A DNA stretch of 30,228 nucleotides from a virus, in the IMG/VR virus record IMGVR_UViG_3300030102_002108, positions 23,482-53,709 of that record; one strand, given 5' to 3'. Every line of letters begins with the position of its first letter. Position 1 is the stretch's first letter. Positions 9,558 through 27,307 of the stretch are shown here, in pieces. A model generated the notes under the pieces. It ran no database searches. It saw only the letters and a program-made list of their open reading frames with translations, and had not been told where the DNA came from. Made by a program: the position numbers and the translations under genes.

Positions 9558-10584
9558 GTCGCTAAAGCTTTTCTTAGCATGCGTATTGTTAAGCGTGGCA
9601 ACTGTCGCTCAAGGACAGCTGCTGCGCTTTTCTACGCTGTATGGTAGCCTCACAGCCAACGCCCCACTCGTAGAGAACTCTGTGTACAGGGTCAACGGAG
9701 TAGCAGGCTCTGGATACCTTGAGGAGATTACCGAAGTCAACAAGGCTAACTACGTCTTCAGTGTTGGCCTGCGCAAGCTGGCAAGGTTTGACTATCAGGT
9801 CAAGCAGGGCCAGTTCTACACAGGTCAGGAGAACGAGATTAGCGACAACGCCACGGTGTCAAACGCTCCCGGTTGGGAGTATCTGCTGGAGTACTCAGCT
9901 GTTCGGAACAGGAACGACGTGTTCACTCAGCAGGAGTACAGGTTGCGCTACTCAGGCAACTGGTTTACGGTTCGTGGTAGCTACATTCAGAACGGACTGG
10001 TCAACCTCAAGTACACTCAAGCAGAGGTCAGGCTACGCAAGAGACTTGGTGAGTTTGACTTCACCGTAGGCGCAGCTCACAGGGCACACCCGGTGTACGG
10101 CTACTCCCCCATCGAGGCGTGGTTTGACGACCCAGCCAACAAGCACTGGTGGCAGCTGGCCAACGAGTACGGCTTCTACAGTGACGACGAAGAGGTGTGG
10201 CGTCTCAACGGGGACGTCATTGCTCAGTCAGACGTAGAGTTCTACGGCTACCACTTCGGTAGGATTGTGAACGACTACAACAGAAGAGAGCTAGATGAGT
10301 TTGGTTTGCAGCAAGAGCTGTCAGCTGTGGTGGGTATGGACTACTACCACTACACGGAGCAAGCTTGGGTGCATGGCTGGTGCTCTCTGTACTCCATGCA
10401 CAGGGGCTTGAGCGACCTATCGTTTGAGTACGAAGACAACATGGATATTGAGTGGGACGCAGGTCTCATCATTGGAGCAAAGCTTAACAAACATCTTAGT
10501 ATATTTGTGGAAGCCAGACACTTACAGTACTGGCAGATTAACTCATACGCAGGCCGCGCAGGCTTCAACTACTTATTCTTCTAA
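9550..10584 (+). CDS. Phage-encoded outer-membrane beta-barrel protein
   Basis: About 344 aa. Starting at GTG 9550 gives a classical signal peptide (GKSLKLFLACVLLSVATVA then QGQ). GTG 9538 also keeps the signal peptide; longer starts only add a basic tail, so I prefer 9550 (8-bp overlap with the previous stop). The mature part is a run of alternating amphipathic, aromatic-rich strands, for example YRLRYSGNWFTVRGSY and AGLIIGAKLNKHLSIFVEAR, with acidic turns, and it ends in FNYLFF. A terminal aromatic residue is typical of barrels recognised by BamA. No enzymatic motif is evident. Location is inferred as the outer membrane of a Bacteroidota host. Because it follows the holin, roles in outer-membrane disruption at lysis or in receptor masking/superinfection exclusion are both plausible. 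Confidence 0.7.
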   Translation: MGKSLKLFLACVLLSVATVAQGQLLRFSTLYGSLTANAPLVENSVYRVNGVAGSGYLEEITEVNKANYVFSVGLRKLARFDYQVKQGQFYTGQENEISDNATVSNAPGWEYLLEYSAVRNRNDVFTQQEYRLRYSGNWFTVRGSYIQNGLVNLKYTQAEVRLRKRLGEFDFTVGAAHRAHPVYGYSPIEAWFDDPANKHWWQLANEYGFYSDDEEVWRLNGDVIAQSDVEFYGYHFGRIVNDYNRRELDEFGLQQELSAVVGMDYYHYTEQAWVHGWCSLYSMHRGLSDLSFEYEDNMDIEWDAGLIIGAKLNKHLSIFVEARHLQYWQINSYAGRAGFNYLFF

Positions 10585-10586
10585 CT

Positions 10587-10862
10587 ATGGCGAAGGTCGG
10601 AGAGAACACAGAGGTTACCCTAGACCTCAAGACACTGGGGATGGTAGCTGCCGGAATTGGCAGCATGGTTGCTATGTGGTTCTCGCTTCAAGCCGACATC
10701 GCCGAAGCCAAGGAGTTGCCAGCCCCACACGCACCTGAGATTACTCGCATGGAGTTTGACATGAAGGACCAGCTGGTTCGTCAAACAATCATGAGCACAC
10801 AGGAGGATGTCACCGAGATGAAGGAGGACATCAAGATGATTAAGGAAAAGCTGTATGAATAA
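10587..10862 (+). CDS. Small single-TM protein with coiled-coil tail
   Basis: A 91-aa protein starting at ATG two bases after the barrel gene stop. Residues about 16-38 (LGMVAAGIGSMVAMWFSL) form one hydrophobic helix, preceded by a short polar N-terminus. The C-terminal 45 residues are heptad-like and charged (TQEDVTEMKEDIKMIKEKL), predicting a coiled coil. There is no cleavable signal. The topology (TM anchor plus long helix, adjacent to holin and periplasmic genes) resembles i-spanin-like or holin-accessory proteins, but no sequence signature proves it. Its stop overlaps the next start by 8 bp. Confidence 0.75.
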   Translation: MAKVGENTEVTLDLKTLGMVAAGIGSMVAMWFSLQADIAEAKELPAPHAPEITRMEFDMKDQLVRQTIMSTQEDVTEMKEDIKMIKEKLYE

Positions 10863-11226
10863 GTTGCTTCTCCTGTTGTTGCTGCTGCCTGCCACAGCAT
10901 TCTCACAAAGCTTTCTGGAGCTGGATGAGCTTGACGCCAAGAAGTCCAAGGGGATTACGGTTGTTGAGTTCTGGGCTGAGTGGAATAAGTCCAACGAGGT
11001 AGCGTTCCTCAATGACCTCAAGGACTGCAGAGCGTACCGCATGTGCATTGACCTTCAGCCCAAGGCGGTCGGTCAGTACAGCATCAGCAGTGTGCCAACA
11101 GTTGTTGTGTTTGACAACGGGCTAGAGGTGTTGAGATTTAACCCAACAATCATGATGCAGCTTGCTGCCACCAAGGATGAAATCCAAGAAGAGATTGACG
11201 ACATTATTCTAAAAAAGTTTCAATGA
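10855..11226 (+). CDS. Exported thioredoxin-fold protein lacking the CXXC site
   Basis: A 123-aa protein with a signal peptide (MNKLLLLLLLLPATAFSQS), then a thioredoxin-like core: ITVVEFWAEWNKSNEV at about 34-49 followed later by ISSVPTVVVFDNG with the conserved cis-proline. In thioredoxins the WC(G/x)PC active site follows FWAEW; here the same place reads W43-N-K-S-N, so both catalytic cysteines are gone. Two other cysteines (C58, C64) remain, in the helix after the site and near the next strand. The fold call is strong; redox activity at the normal site is excluded by sequence. A binding or chaperone role in the periplasm is inferred. It overlaps its neighbours by 8 and 4 bp. Confidence 0.8.
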   Translation: MNKLLLLLLLLPATAFSQSFLELDELDAKKSKGITVVEFWAEWNKSNEVAFLNDLKDCRAYRMCIDLQPKAVGQYSISSVPTVVVFDNGLEVLRFNPTIMMQLAATKDEIQEEIDDIILKKFQ

Positions 11227-11750
11227 TGAAGAAGTTACTTTCTACCATCACCACGGTACTTATGCTGTCTCCTGTGTGGGCACAGCCTAACGTCACGCCT
11301 GTGTTCGTTGAGTGTACCCCCGGTGAGTACCCCAACGAGATTTCGTGGGAGATTATGACGTGCGACAGCACGGTTCTTTTAGATGGCGGCGCACCTTTCT
11401 TTGGTGCAGCCCTGATGCCAGACCCAGACAGGTTTATCATTCACATGATGGACAGCTACGGTGACGGATGGAACGGAGCCTACTTGATTGTAGACACAGT
11501 TTCGTACGGCTTCCTGTCTGACGTAGACTGGATTGATTCACTGGGCACATGGCCACAGGACCAGCCCGAGCAGTGGGTGACCGTGGGTTGCAACGACCCA
11601 GTCACCGATGTACAAGAGATTACTCAGGAGCCATTCGTTCCTACTCGCTACTACAACCTGTTTGGTCAGGAGGTGGTGTTGCGTGAGCGCGGCTACTACA
11701 TTGCCACTGACGGCATGCGTTCTCGACTGATTTACAGAAGAGAAGAATAA
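11223..11750 (+). CDS. Secreted protein with DxxGDGWNG motif and T9SS-like C-terminus
   Basis: A 175-aa protein. A signal peptide MKKLLSTITTVLMLSPVWAQ is followed by a Cys-containing domain (C31, C47, C123) with DSYGDGWNGAYL at 77-88, a motif I know from secreted proteins of marine Bacteroidota and other marine microbes. The last ~38 residues (TRYYNLFGQEVVLRERGYYI then a basic RREE end) look like a type A T9SS sorting domain: a yN-l-G-qev strand, a G-x-Y strand, a turn with DG, and a last strand with basic residues. If it works, the protein would pass the outer membrane through the host T9SS. Start ATG 11223 overlaps the thioredoxin-like stop as ATGA. The function of the mature part is unknown. 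Confidence 0.7.
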   Translation: MMKKLLSTITTVLMLSPVWAQPNVTPVFVECTPGEYPNEISWEIMTCDSTVLLDGGAPFFGAALMPDPDRFIIHMMDSYGDGWNGAYLIVDTVSYGFLSDVDWIDSLGTWPQDQPEQWVTVGCNDPVTDVQEITQEPFVPTRYYNLFGQEVVLRERGYYIATDGMRSRLIYRREE

Positions 11751-24739: not shown

Positions 24740-24774
24740 GATGTTGGGGTTTGTGTGCCGTAGCACGGGTTAGA

Positions 24775-24833: not shown

Positions 24834-25597
24834 TGACGCCATGGCGGGTGGATAGCCCCGCAGTCCCCGGCTGGCCGGTATCATGGCGGTGTAGTCAATA
24901 GTGTTTGCGTTACTTCTTCCCCCATCCCAACTCCGATGGCCACGTAGTGTGGCGGGTTTTGTCGGCCCAAGTGGTAGGTAGTTTCAATACGTCAAAGAAC
25001 TGCGCTCTGCGGTGAGTGGTGTGTGCCCACCATGCGTTCTGCATACATGGTGCGAGGTGCGCCCCGTGGGGCGGGTCGTTTAGTCAGCGACAGGCAGTAC
25101 GTCAATAGTCCGAGGGCGGTTGCCGTTGCAACACGATGCCATTGTAGTAAGGGGGGTGCCACCGCTCCAAATTGTCAAGCAACTTTTAGACGAAGAGCAG
25201 GATTCAATCGACGAACAGCCAAATAGCTTCGACGAGAAAATCAGAATTTTAACATTTGTGTGTTTGCACAGGTCAGAAAAAAGTGGTAGACGCGCGTATC
25301 AACCTTCGTGCCAACCCCGTTTGTGGGGTCAGTTTGGGGGTGTTCAGGTCAGGCGATGGAGTTGTCCCACCTCCCTGCATGGGTGGTCAAACTTGCTATT
25401 GACAATTCACCCAATAGTGTTGACAAATACGCTGAAAGTTTCTGCAATACAAACGTGTAAACCCTACCCCCCCCATAGGATTAAACGACTTCCGGTCGAC
25501 GTGACGCGCGTGTACATATAGACATAATCCCCACCCCACACATTTCTCAGGACTTTTCCGGAGGGACATGTATGTGTTTCCTTTTTTTGGAGCGCTG
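24834..25597. other. Non-coding region with short repeats
   Basis: I see no convincing gene here in either direction. Contents: palindrome CGCCATGGCG (24837-24846), a CCGGC-TG-GCCGG hairpin (24867-24878), the 10-mer CAATAGTGTT twice (24896-24905 and 25412-25421), TTGACAA twice with 21-bp periodicity (25399-25405, 25420-25426) plus its reverse complement at 25172-25178, and a C8 run near 25467. Being the main gap at the switch of transcription direction, it is a candidate for a replication origin or control region. Confidence 0.5.
25560..25588 (+). terminator. Weak Rho-independent terminator-like hairpin
   Basis: GGAGGG-ACAT-GT-ATGT-GTTTCC with two G-U pairs and one mismatch, followed by seven T. 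No gene ends just upstream on the + strand, so it could stop antisense transcription before the tRNA-Arg gene, or be chance. Confidence 0.25.
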
Positions 25598-25671
25598 TAC
25601 TCCCGGCAGGGCTCGAACCTGCAACCTACAGCTTAGAAGGCTGTTGCTCTTTCCAGTTGAGCTACGGGAGC
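25598..25671 (-). tRNA. tRNA-Arg(UCU)
   Basis: A complete 74-nt cloverleaf on the - strand: acceptor GCTCCCG/CGGGAGT (closing G-U), D-arm AGCTCAACTGGAAAGAGC, anticodon arm ACAGC-CTTCTAA-GCTGT with anticodon TCT, variable loop AGGTT, T-arm GCAGG-TTCGAGC-CCTGC and discriminator A; CCA is not encoded. It decodes AGA (and AGG by wobble), which dominate the arginine codons at the start of the polyvalent gene. The 5' end lies about 14 bp from an exact TAnnTTTG box, so it is the first gene of the leftward transcript. Confidence 0.95.
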
Positions 25672-25684
25672 ATATCGTTTGACA

Positions 25685-25715
25685 CAAAGGTACTTACAAG
25701 TTCTCGAGTAAACAA
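25685..25715 (-). promoter_or_regulatory. Leftward Bacteroidota promoter TTG-N20-TACCTTTG
   Basis: On the - strand TTG (25713-25715) is followed after exactly 20 bases by TACCTTTG (25685-25692), matching TTG-N(17-23)-TAnnTTTG. The start point would be near 25680, just ahead of tRNA-Arg. The -33 TTG lies in the palindrome CAAGTACTTG (25713-25722), and a CTCGAG palindrome lies in the spacer, so a regulator could block it. Confidence 0.7.
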
Positions 25716-25722
25716 GTACTTG
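25713..25722. promoter_or_regulatory. Palindromic operator candidate CAAGTACTTG
   Basis: A perfect 10-bp palindrome between the two divergent promoters, containing the leftward -33 TTG and ending six bases before the rightward TTG. A related GGTACTTACAAG occurs at 25690-25700. The location fits a switch protein that controls both directions; CAAGT/ACTTG could also form a hairpin. Confidence 0.4.
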
Positions 25723-25727
25723 GAGAC

Positions 25728-25758
25728 TTGACTTTTTAATTTTTTTCCCGTAACTTTG
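25728..25758 (+). promoter_or_regulatory. Rightward Bacteroidota promoter TTG-N20-TAACTTTG
   Basis: TTG (25728-25730), exactly 20 bases of A/T-rich spacer including a T7 run, then TAACTTTG (25751-25758): a full match with the same spacing as the leftward promoter. The predicted start is near 25764. It reads into a 170-nt leader before the first rightward gene. Confidence 0.75.
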
Positions 25759-25763
25759 CTAAG

Positions 25764-25933
25764 TCGCTAGGCACTCACGACAACGCCAGTCACGCCCTTC
25801 GACCCTATGGGAGTTCGGGTCTCGGACGCTACTCAGTCTGAACAAATGCTGCGTGAAACAGAACTATCGCAGTCGTACTCGTCAAGTGCCGTATCCGGGT
25901 TAGCTGTACCCAAAGTTGTAGTATATTTACAAC
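25764..25933 (+). ncRNA. Candidate structured leader or small RNA
   Basis: There is no ORF between the rightward promoter and ATG 25934. Pairings visible by eye: long-range GGCACT (25770-25775) with AGTGCC (25885-25890), then GAC/GTC inside it; GACCC (25801-25805) with GGGTC (25817-25821); CTGCG (25849-25853) with CGCAG (25868-25872); and GGGT/ACCC (25897-25911) after the closed domain. Together they would make a multi-branched RNA of about 120 nt. A second -7-like box TATATTTA (25922-25929) lies four bases before the ATG, so the upstream RNA could be a separate transcript. No known riboswitch is recognised. Confidence 0.4.
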
Positions 25934-26104
25934 ATGAATCTACCAACACTAAACCCTGAGTTTATAGAGGTGTTGATGACAGCATCAAAAAAACAAAAGA
26001 ACAATGGCTCTGCCCGAGCGCGTCGTCGTGCTATGGAGAGAGCTTTGAACAAACACTACGGCAATGCGAGCAGTAAAGCGAGACAAGAAGACGGGGCTTC
26101 CTGA
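25934..26104 (+). CDS. Basic small protein (56 aa)
   Basis: ATG 25934 begins MNLPTLNPEFIEVLMTASKK, continues with a Lys/Arg-rich part (GSARARRRAMERALNKHYGN) and ends at TGA 26102-26104. It overlaps the next gene by 41 bp. High positive charge suggests nucleic-acid or virion-DNA contact. It is preceded by TATATTTA at a four-base distance, the same layout as before the Met-rich gene. No family recognised. Confidence 0.65.
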   Translation: MNLPTLNPEFIEVLMTASKKQKNNGSARARRRAMERALNKHYGNASSKARQEDGAS

Positions 26105-26486
26105 GAAGTATCTGTCTGGTTCAGAGAATCGGGCGGCAAGAGCCGACTCCATCAAGAAGGGCCAAGAGGCTTACAAGGAAGGGAAGCGACTCCCCGACAG
26201 CTACTTTGATGAAAGACAAGAGTTCAAGAAAGGTGGCAAGGTAAAGACAGGCAAGGGTGCCAAGGAAGGCCGAAAGCCTTTGAACGCATCTACCATTGCC
26301 TCGCTCAAGAAGAAGGCCAAGTCATCAGGCAAGTCTCTTGCTACACTCAAGAAGGTGTACCGTAGAGGTCAGGGTGCGTACCTGTCTAGTGGTTCAAGAC
26401 CGAAGACAAGTATGGCTGCTTGGGCCATGGGCAGAGTCAACAGCTTCATCAAAGGCTCGAAGAAGCACGATACAGACTTGAGATAA
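26064..26486 (+). CDS. Basic protein with YxRGxGAYxSSGSRP motif (140 aa)
   Basis: A Lys/Arg-rich protein starting MRAVKRDKKTGLPEKYLSG. The C-terminal part has STIASLKKKAKSSGKSLATL, then VYRRGQGAYLSSGSRPKTSM and WAMGRVNSFIKGSKKHDTDL. I know this R-G-x-G-A-Y...S-G-S-R-P...W-A-x-x-R-V-N-S-F signature from marine phage and large-virus proteins (DUF5872-like, from memory). The function is unknown; the positive charge suggests binding to DNA or packaging in the virion. A central GGKVKTGKG stretch links it to the Gly-Gly motif of its neighbours. Confidence 0.8.
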   Translation: MRAVKRDKKTGLPEKYLSGSENRAARADSIKKGQEAYKEGKRLPDSYFDERQEFKKGGKVKTGKGAKEGRKPLNASTIASLKKKAKSSGKSLATLKKVYRRGQGAYLSSGSRPKTSMAAWAMGRVNSFIKGSKKHDTDLR

Positions 26487-26519: not shown

Positions 26520-26813
26520 ATGGCAAAAGCAAAAAAGAAGGCCAAGACTTACAACACTTACGCTGCTGGTGGTAAGGTGAACGCTATGACTTACGACCAA
26601 GTCAGAAAGGGTATGGCCGACGGAACTGTCAAGCTCGCCAAGAAGTCATTCGCCTATGGAGGTAAGATGTACAACCAAGGCGGTAAGCCCGACTACATCG
26701 ACATTGATGGAGACGGCAACAAGACAGAACCCATGAAGGAAGCGGCCAAGGAAGCAAAGACGCCTAAGGCTAGGAAGGGAATGTTCCTCAAGAAGAAGAC
26801 GAAGAAGAAGTAA
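26520..26813 (+). CDS. Lys/Gly-rich protein with DIDGDGN loop (97 aa)
   Basis: Very basic at both ends (MAKAKKKAKTYNTYAAGGK; MFLKKKTKKK). Middle: AYGGKMYNQGGKPDYIDIDG, followed by DGNKTEPMKEA. The D-I-D-G-D-G-N loop resembles a Ca2+-binding EF-hand/dockerin loop, and the P-D-Y-x-D-x-D-x-D-G-N-x-x-E-x-M-K pattern recurs in marine phage small proteins. The function is not established; a virion-associated role is inferred from neighbours. The stop shares a base with the next ATG (TAATG). Confidence 0.75.
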   Translation: MAKAKKKAKTYNTYAAGGKVNAMTYDQVRKGMADGTVKLAKKSFAYGGKMYNQGGKPDYIDIDGDGNKTEPMKEAAKEAKTPKARKGMFLKKKTKKK

Positions 26814-27307
26814 TGCACCTTCAAGTACTCAGGTTCTCAGATAGCGGGGACTCGACCAATGGTATTTTGGTTGAGCTGTTCCCTGATGGGCGAGAGTTCT
26901 TGTGCTACACTTTGGAGGATGAAGAGCGCAAGAGGAAGAAGTATGCGGAGACCCGAATCCCTGAGGGGACATACGACATCACGCTTCGGACCGAGGGCGG
27001 GTTTCACGCCAAGTACTCCGAGCGGTTTCCCGACATCCATGAGGGCATGCTCTGGGTGCGAGACGTACCTAACTTTGAATACATCCTCATCCACTGTGGC
27101 AACACAGACGAGCACACAGCAGGATGTCTTCTGCTTGGTGACAGCCAAGAGAACAACCAGCTCGTGGATGATGGATTCATTGGCAAATCAACACAGGCGT
27201 ACAAGAGAGTGTACCCAAAAATTCTAAAGGCACTTAACAACGGGGAGGATGTTCGCATCGAGTACATCGACCTCAATGATGTTATCATCGCAAAACTGAA
27301 CTTATGA
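26813..27307 (+). CDS. DUF5675-family protein, possible peptidoglycan-related
   Basis: A 164-aa protein with the family's order of motifs: FLCYTLEDEERKRKKYAETR, IPEGTYDITLRTEGGFH, then VPNFEYILIHCGNTDEHTAG and CLLLGDS. The IPxGtY, VPxFexILIHxGNt and T-x-G-C-l-l-G signatures make the family call firm. DUF5675 proteins are frequent in phages and mobile elements near lysis genes; the invariant His and Cys (in IHCGN and AGCLL) recall L,D-transpeptidase-like active sites, but enzymatic activity is not established to my knowledge. No signal peptide. Here it is separated from the holin by the replication block. Confidence 0.85.
   Translation: MHLQVLRFSDSGDSTNGILVELFPDGREFLCYTLEDEERKRKKYAETRIPEGTYDITLRTEGGFHAKYSERFPDIHEGMLWVRDVPNFEYILIHCGNTDEHTAGCLLLGDSQENNQLVDDGFIGKSTQAYKRVYPKILKALNNGEDVRIEYIDLNDVIIAKLNL

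Follow-up and report, generated by a model that had tools for sequence, protein, structure and literature searches.

Divergent promoters at a predicted early/late junction of a flavobacteria-type phage, with a putative structured leader ahead of the late operon

Introduction

Phage RNAs and RNA-based systems that offer points of reference for the locus described here include: (i) the phi29 pRNA, which is a phage packaging RNA, (ii) the ~194-nt 6S leader transcript made from the lambda late promoter pR', and (iii) the HK022 put RNA and lambda N/nut, which are phage antitermination systems. The present locus lies in a 30,228-nt stretch (the window; positions 23482-53709) of a 53.7-kb IMG/VR phage contig, at the point of contact between replication genes on the minus strand and structural genes on the plus strand. 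It probably forms the early/late junction of a flavobacteria-type phage, in which divergent promoters serve a tRNA on one side and a late operon on the other, the latter with a structured 5' UTR. The promoters are ordinary for Bacteroidota, and the leader family is the more interesting part of the locus.

Two published descriptions bear on this locus. In F. psychrophilum, the -7 box occupies -12 to -5 (PMC9723704). Among the covariation-supported candidate structured RNAs of the human microbiome, one is near Bacteroidetes phage genes (PMC8040213).

Results

The pattern TTG-N20-TAnnTTTG is matched exactly on both strands of the junction (Table 1), with the two TTG boxes separated by 12 bp (25716-25727), as a sequence-only reading of this DNA had stated. 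Four exact matches are observed in the window compared to 0.14 expected; the two outside the junction (885 plus and 12623 minus) are inside ORFs and are chance-like. A divergent exact pair did not arise in any of 1500 dinucleotide shuffles of the window or 20000 shuffles of the local 340 nt. Stronger evidence for the promoters than these shuffle tests is conservation across relatives, which comprise 80 loci gathered with the DUF5675 protein (79 in the promoter comparison, as L046 has too little upstream sequence). The 12 closest loci are L005-L016, from which L007 is left out since it begins after the site. Both promoters are kept, with the N20 spacers and the same 43-bp offset, in all 11 relatives covering the site, a set that is not fully independent because L011 matches L012 exactly in this region and L006 differs little from L009. 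Across the 12 aligned sequences, 17/20 columns of the leftward spacer and 15/20 of the rightward spacer are invariant. The locus carries two divergent Bacteroidota-type (sigma-A-like) promoters, beyond chance. The divergent layout is limited to the window group, as it is noted in 2 of 28 records, both of window-group phages, and in none of 80 terminase loci, many of which end short of the site.

Transcription is predicted by the F. psychrophilum rule (PMC9723704) to start at 25680 (leftward) and 25763 (rightward), close to the 25680 and 25764 proposed earlier. The predicted rightward start is a purine, as expected of a start, in 29/29 leader-family members with the end motif. A second promoter (TATATTTA/TAGCTTTG) before the ATG was dropped, as its start would coincide with the ATG.

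Table 1. Coordinates of the features at the junction, in window positions.
Feature	Position	Strand	Basis or remark
tRNA-Arg(TCT), first gene of the leftward unit	25597..25671	-	ARAGORN; Rfam RF00005
Leftward promoter, TTG-N20-TACCTTTG	25685..25715	-	Start predicted at 25680, 9 nt ahead of the tRNA (position by the rule of PMC9723704)
Palindrome CAAGTACTTG	25713..25722	.	Not conserved; judged chance
Rightward late-operon promoter, TTGACTTT...GTAACTTTG	25728..25758	+	Predicted start G25763
P0 5' arm, GCTAA	25758..25762	+	Last -7-box base plus four nt; predicted upstream of +1
Putative structured leader (5' UTR) of the late operon	25763..25933	+	Homologues; covariation in other subgroups
P1 5' arm, GGCACT	25770..25775	+	Predicted folds; pairs with 25885-25890
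P1 3' arm, AGTGCC	25885..25890	+	Predicted folds
Leader end motif GGGTTAGCTGTACCC	25897..25911	+	Contains the P0 3' arm TTAGC (25900-25904)
Hairpin GTTGTA-GTATATT-TACAAC right before the ATG	25915..25933	+	Sequence
56-aa basic protein, arginine-rich stretch SARARRRAMERALNK; first late-operon gene	25934..26104	+	
140-aa DUF5824 protein; second gene	26064..26486	+	Pfam PF19141, E 1.2e-9
DUF5675 protein; query that gathered the relatives	26813..27307	+	Pfam PF18925, E 6e-27

The tRNA on the leftward side has a cloverleaf that scores 70.3 bits against a gathering score of 29 (Rfam RF00005), and 13 nt separate its start at 25671 from the end of the leftward promoter box at 25685. A tRNA-Arg(TCT) is found immediately left of the leftward promoter in 11/11 covering relatives (L007 again left out). 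AGA, the codon expected to be read by this tRNA, is used more than any other Arg codon (186 of 562 in the 15 ORFs counted). The minus-strand genes farther left include those for a primase/helicase, an exonuclease and an Erf-like protein; the nearest sizeable minus-strand ORF left of the tRNA starts only at 24766, and a search for a clear promoter of this ORF found none. The tRNA-Arg genes of L020, L035 and L054 are in unrelated contexts with no such divergent pair by eye.

Several other elements are noted around the tRNA. The stretch at 24884-25560, between the tRNA and the leftward genes, spans ~700 bp with no convincing gene and is ~82-94% identical to several relatives. Adjoining the tRNA is ACATGTATGTGTTTCCTTTT (25567-25590), which recurs in relatives such as L014/L015 and, in near-identical form, across the leader, after it, in the distant L254 and L261; this element may mark the start of a gene (MYVFPF) or act as a motif in the DNA. 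At 25517-25530, ACATAATCCCC forms a TATAATCCC-like motif, which is also upstream of the leader promoter in L155, L162, L178, L191 and L203. The motif lies ahead of the late promoter by roughly 100-200 nt, in relatives after a GATTNCGTTTCGGTT-like string, and is a candidate for an origin or a regulatory site. A short ORF on the plus strand, which encodes a membrane-like peptide and often has a TAnnTTTG-type box of its own, directly precedes the late promoter in L155, L158, L172, L178, L203, L227 and L229; in the window group, this place is taken by the tRNA. In the distant L176 (614-688) and L193 (3792-3865), a tRNA-Arg(TCT) is on the plus strand amid other genes.

A Bacteroidota host is well supported. 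Among the 104 phage records matched by the terminase, those with a host genus in their name are all Bacteroidota phages (Flavobacterium 68, Cellulophaga 15, Tenacibaculum 2, Azobacteroides 2 and Maribacter 1, with 16 bearing no genus). The helicase is best matched by that of Maribacter phage Panino (33%), the only near-full-length match; three cyanobacterial phages are among the weaker matches. In a bacterial and archaeal collection, 118 stretches contain the rightward promoter pattern, and 64 of the 80 titles listed from these are Bacteroidota, a raw count by eye and not per genome. Thus, the phylum named in the sequence-only reading stands, but its further claim that no protein fixes the phylum as well as the promoter is not supported, as the terminase and helicase point to this host as much as the promoter does.

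On the rightward side, ~170 nt with no conserved reading frame separate the predicted start from the ATG at 25934; a coding leader was rejected, as the frame from ATG 25846 is interrupted by TAA in L005, L010 and L011. A first-round profile of the leader gave a weak full-length match to L155 (E 0.14), whose terminase is 76% identical to that of the window. With L155 and the promoter added, the profile matched L158/L159 (4e-26), L172 (5e-7), L191 (4e-5) and L162/L164 (2e-4), E-values that reflect both promoter and leader. Scans with the promoter pattern yielded further members. The 3' end motif is present in 27 of 39 distinct viral promoter sequences (29 with a looser motif) and in 7 of 115 cellular promoter sequences that served as a negative control; these counts retain rows in which the regular expression picked the wrong motif (L254 in both scans, L261 in the looser one). 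The 12 sequences with no motif comprise L172, L227, L229 and L237, which are group B by alignment, L242, L244 and L256, which are a variant, and L248, L249, L252, L264 and L267, which are non-members by eye. In group D, the ATG comes directly after the end motif.

The leader belongs to a family with members in further IMG/VR phages, where a related terminase lies downstream, and is beyond the Rfam families searched. Rfam 15, searched at gathering score and with E up to 5 for the window stretch 25560-25960, left the leader unmatched in the window; the matches there were the tRNA and a single sub-threshold one that covers the tRNA on the opposite strand. In ten relatives, the leader was likewise unmatched and the only matches were tRNAs elsewhere. 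Three leaders compared by blastn to named phages gave chance-level matches only (best E 0.6, confined to the promoter stretch), and the terminase-related regions of NC_055854 and MW202828 showed no such promoter and leader over the 16 and 24 kb covered. A literature search of limited extent found no description of the leader. A terminator-like site was sought on the plus strand after the leader and was not found.

The linear contig of the window's record carries its terminase, portal and capsid genes at the opposite end. The late-promoter site of relatives has the terminase downstream of it; a related terminase is 5.7-10.6 kb downstream of the leader on the same strand in 15 rows, of which L242 and L245 are the variant with no end motif. 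In L248, L265 and L273, the terminase is on the other side and other strand; L248 has no 3' motif, and L265 and L273 are duplicates. The leader is followed by the gene for the small arginine-rich protein in the window group and in group D (L178, L203, L241 and L257), and by other genes in groups B and C. The 56-aa protein of the window has no PHROG match and no Pfam match above the cut-off, and a search at E up to 1 for the arginine-rich protein gave no match in the group B and C loci examined. In L115, a gene near the end (9676-11499) has a 607-aa reading that holds an X run, where the stretch is masked or unread.

Compensatory changes above shuffled and slid controls support a structured RNA in the other subgroups. 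In group B (eight sequences, alignment A3), 93.9% of cells in the two hairpins are paired compared to 81.6% when shuffled and 24-41% in slid controls, none of 500 shuffles reaches as good a covariation score, and double changes occur in 9 of 21 pairs. Among 16 representatives, arms wholly after +1 pair with their own partner at -11.1 kcal/mol versus -8.3 kcal/mol with the arms of other members, and 0/5000 permutations are as good. P1 is fully complementary in L243, L253, L254, L261 and L271, with unlike sequences across lineages (e.g., CGTTTGCG/CGTAAACG, TAGTCAC/GTGACTA and CCCTTCA/TGAAGGG). In group D, 98 of 104 cells pair, a count based on hand-picked strands as the MAFFT alignment is out of register, and some of the reported helix positions are those of later copies.

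The window group shows little covariation. P1 pairs are nearly invariant there, and a double change is noted in 1 of 34 pairs predicted by RNAalifold. The TGTAGTATATTTACA of the pre-ATG hairpin is invariant in the 11-row alignment A1. The window fold is hardly more stable than its shuffles (z of -1.08 and -0.46), and for 18 members the mean z is -1.5, with seven below -2. Since covariation in the window subgroup is almost nil, the structure of the window leader rests on homology, by which it is predicted to share the fold.

The outermost helix, P0, has an unusual position. Its 5' arm is at -5 to -1 by the F. psychrophilum rule (PMC9723704) and covaries with bases of the end motif ~140 nt downstream (25900-25904). 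The arms are GCTAA/TTAGC in the window, GCATC/GATGC in L230, L232 and L236, and GCTTT/AAAGC in L158 and L247. Pairs 3 and 4, the two informative ones, are both kept in 24 of 27 rows compared to 11.9 when shuffled (0/20000), a figure that includes related and, thus, non-independent rows. Either transcription starts earlier than expected, or a longer transcript is made, or the repeat acts in DNA.

Discussion

In the reading considered probable here, the leftward sigma-A-like promoter would start transcription at ~25680 and produce tRNA-Arg(TCT), and the rightward sigma-A-like promoter would start at ~G25763 and drive the structural genes of the late operon. This late transcript would begin with ~170 nt that fold as a 5' UTR, the end of which lies immediately ahead of the first ATG. 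The leader may act in cis on the whole transcript, by 5'-end protection, the setting of translation or an effect on elongation. A cis action, and not a gene-specific sensor, is most likely, since the leader is kept though its sequence and, in some subgroups, the first gene vary. As it stands, this simple leader model leaves the P0 5' arm, which is predicted to be untranscribed, unexplained.

Two alternatives assign the junction to elements that act in DNA. The sequence-only reading had placed the master switch of the phage at the palindrome CAAGTACTTG, which would be an operator between the two promoters bound by a phage HTH repressor. The palindrome is indeed perfect and overlaps the leftward TTG box, but it is judged to be no more than chance (5/10 columns invariant in the 12 sequences, and 4/12 between the TTG boxes). 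All 11 relatives that retain both promoters lack CAAGTACTTG and have instead CAAACACTTT, CAAACGCTTC, CAAGCTGTTC, CAACTGCTTC, CAAGCAATTC and similar letters at the site; thus, the palindrome is not the switch. It is also off-centre to the promoter dyad, a search of the 53.7-kb record for other exact copies returned this one only, and a conserved operator between the promoters was sought in the 12 aligned sequences and not found. An operator role is, therefore, extremely unlikely. A concrete map, with a tRNA leftward and a late operon rightward, supersedes the palindrome guess. In the other alternative, which is unlikely, the outer inverted repeat (P0 and perhaps P1) acts in DNA through protein sites, replication or looping, and the RNA fold is secondary. 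Such a role would suit the location at the early/late junction and the covariation of a 5' arm at -5 to -1 with a motif ~140 bp downstream; however, helices entirely within the transcript also covary, and the complementarity ends at the G of the -7 box.

Two further proposals place the function in RNA. That the leader is a free-standing ncRNA, trans-acting or for packaging in the manner of the phi29 pRNA, with the late mRNA made by read-through or from another start, is unlikely. A strong promoter, a conserved fold and a first gene that varies between subgroups are each compatible with a free RNA, whereas the lack of a terminator-like plus-strand site after the leader, the ATG directly after the end motif in group D and the short distance to the ATG in the subgroups read all favor a leader joined to its mRNA. 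A more specific proposal, and a quite improbable one, is that the leader founds a put- or nut-like antitermination RNA family that modifies the host RNA polymerase in Bacteroidota. The P0 covariation would then reflect pairing of the end motif of the nascent RNA with the melted promoter strand, or an unusual start, and the arginine-rich protein of the window group and group D would bind RNA.

Returning to the cis-acting 5' UTR, the analysis points to a structured leader RNA outside Rfam that many uncultivated phages of the flavobacteria type carry. Should the leader control late expression, it would provide a handle on how late genes are run in Bacteroidota phages. The covarying bases before the predicted start pose a sharp, testable puzzle.

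Compared to known systems, the promoters on both strands match exactly the box and spacing of the sigma-A promoters of Bacteroidota (-33 TTG / -7 TAnnTTTG). The rightward promoter differs from this consensus in its longer conserved TTGACTTT and homopolymer-rich spacer, and group B relatives carry TTCG in place of TTTG in the -7 box. The phage-gene RNA of the human microbiome is palindromic, spans 109 bp and is near integrase and D5 domains, a comparison made by description only (PMC8040213). Unlike lambda pR'/6S, the present locus has no terminator found at the leader end and no Q-like gene identified, and it belongs to a different phylum; similarly to pR'/6S, it has a leader of similar length ahead of the late operon. 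By contrast with HK022 put and lambda N/nut, no boxA/boxB or put-like hairpins are recognised in the leader, and the arginine-rich protein was not found in the group B and C loci examined. The likeness to put and N/nut is of a structured leader that starts a long phage operon and, for N/nut, extends to the first gene of the window group and group D, which encodes a small protein with an arginine-rich stretch.
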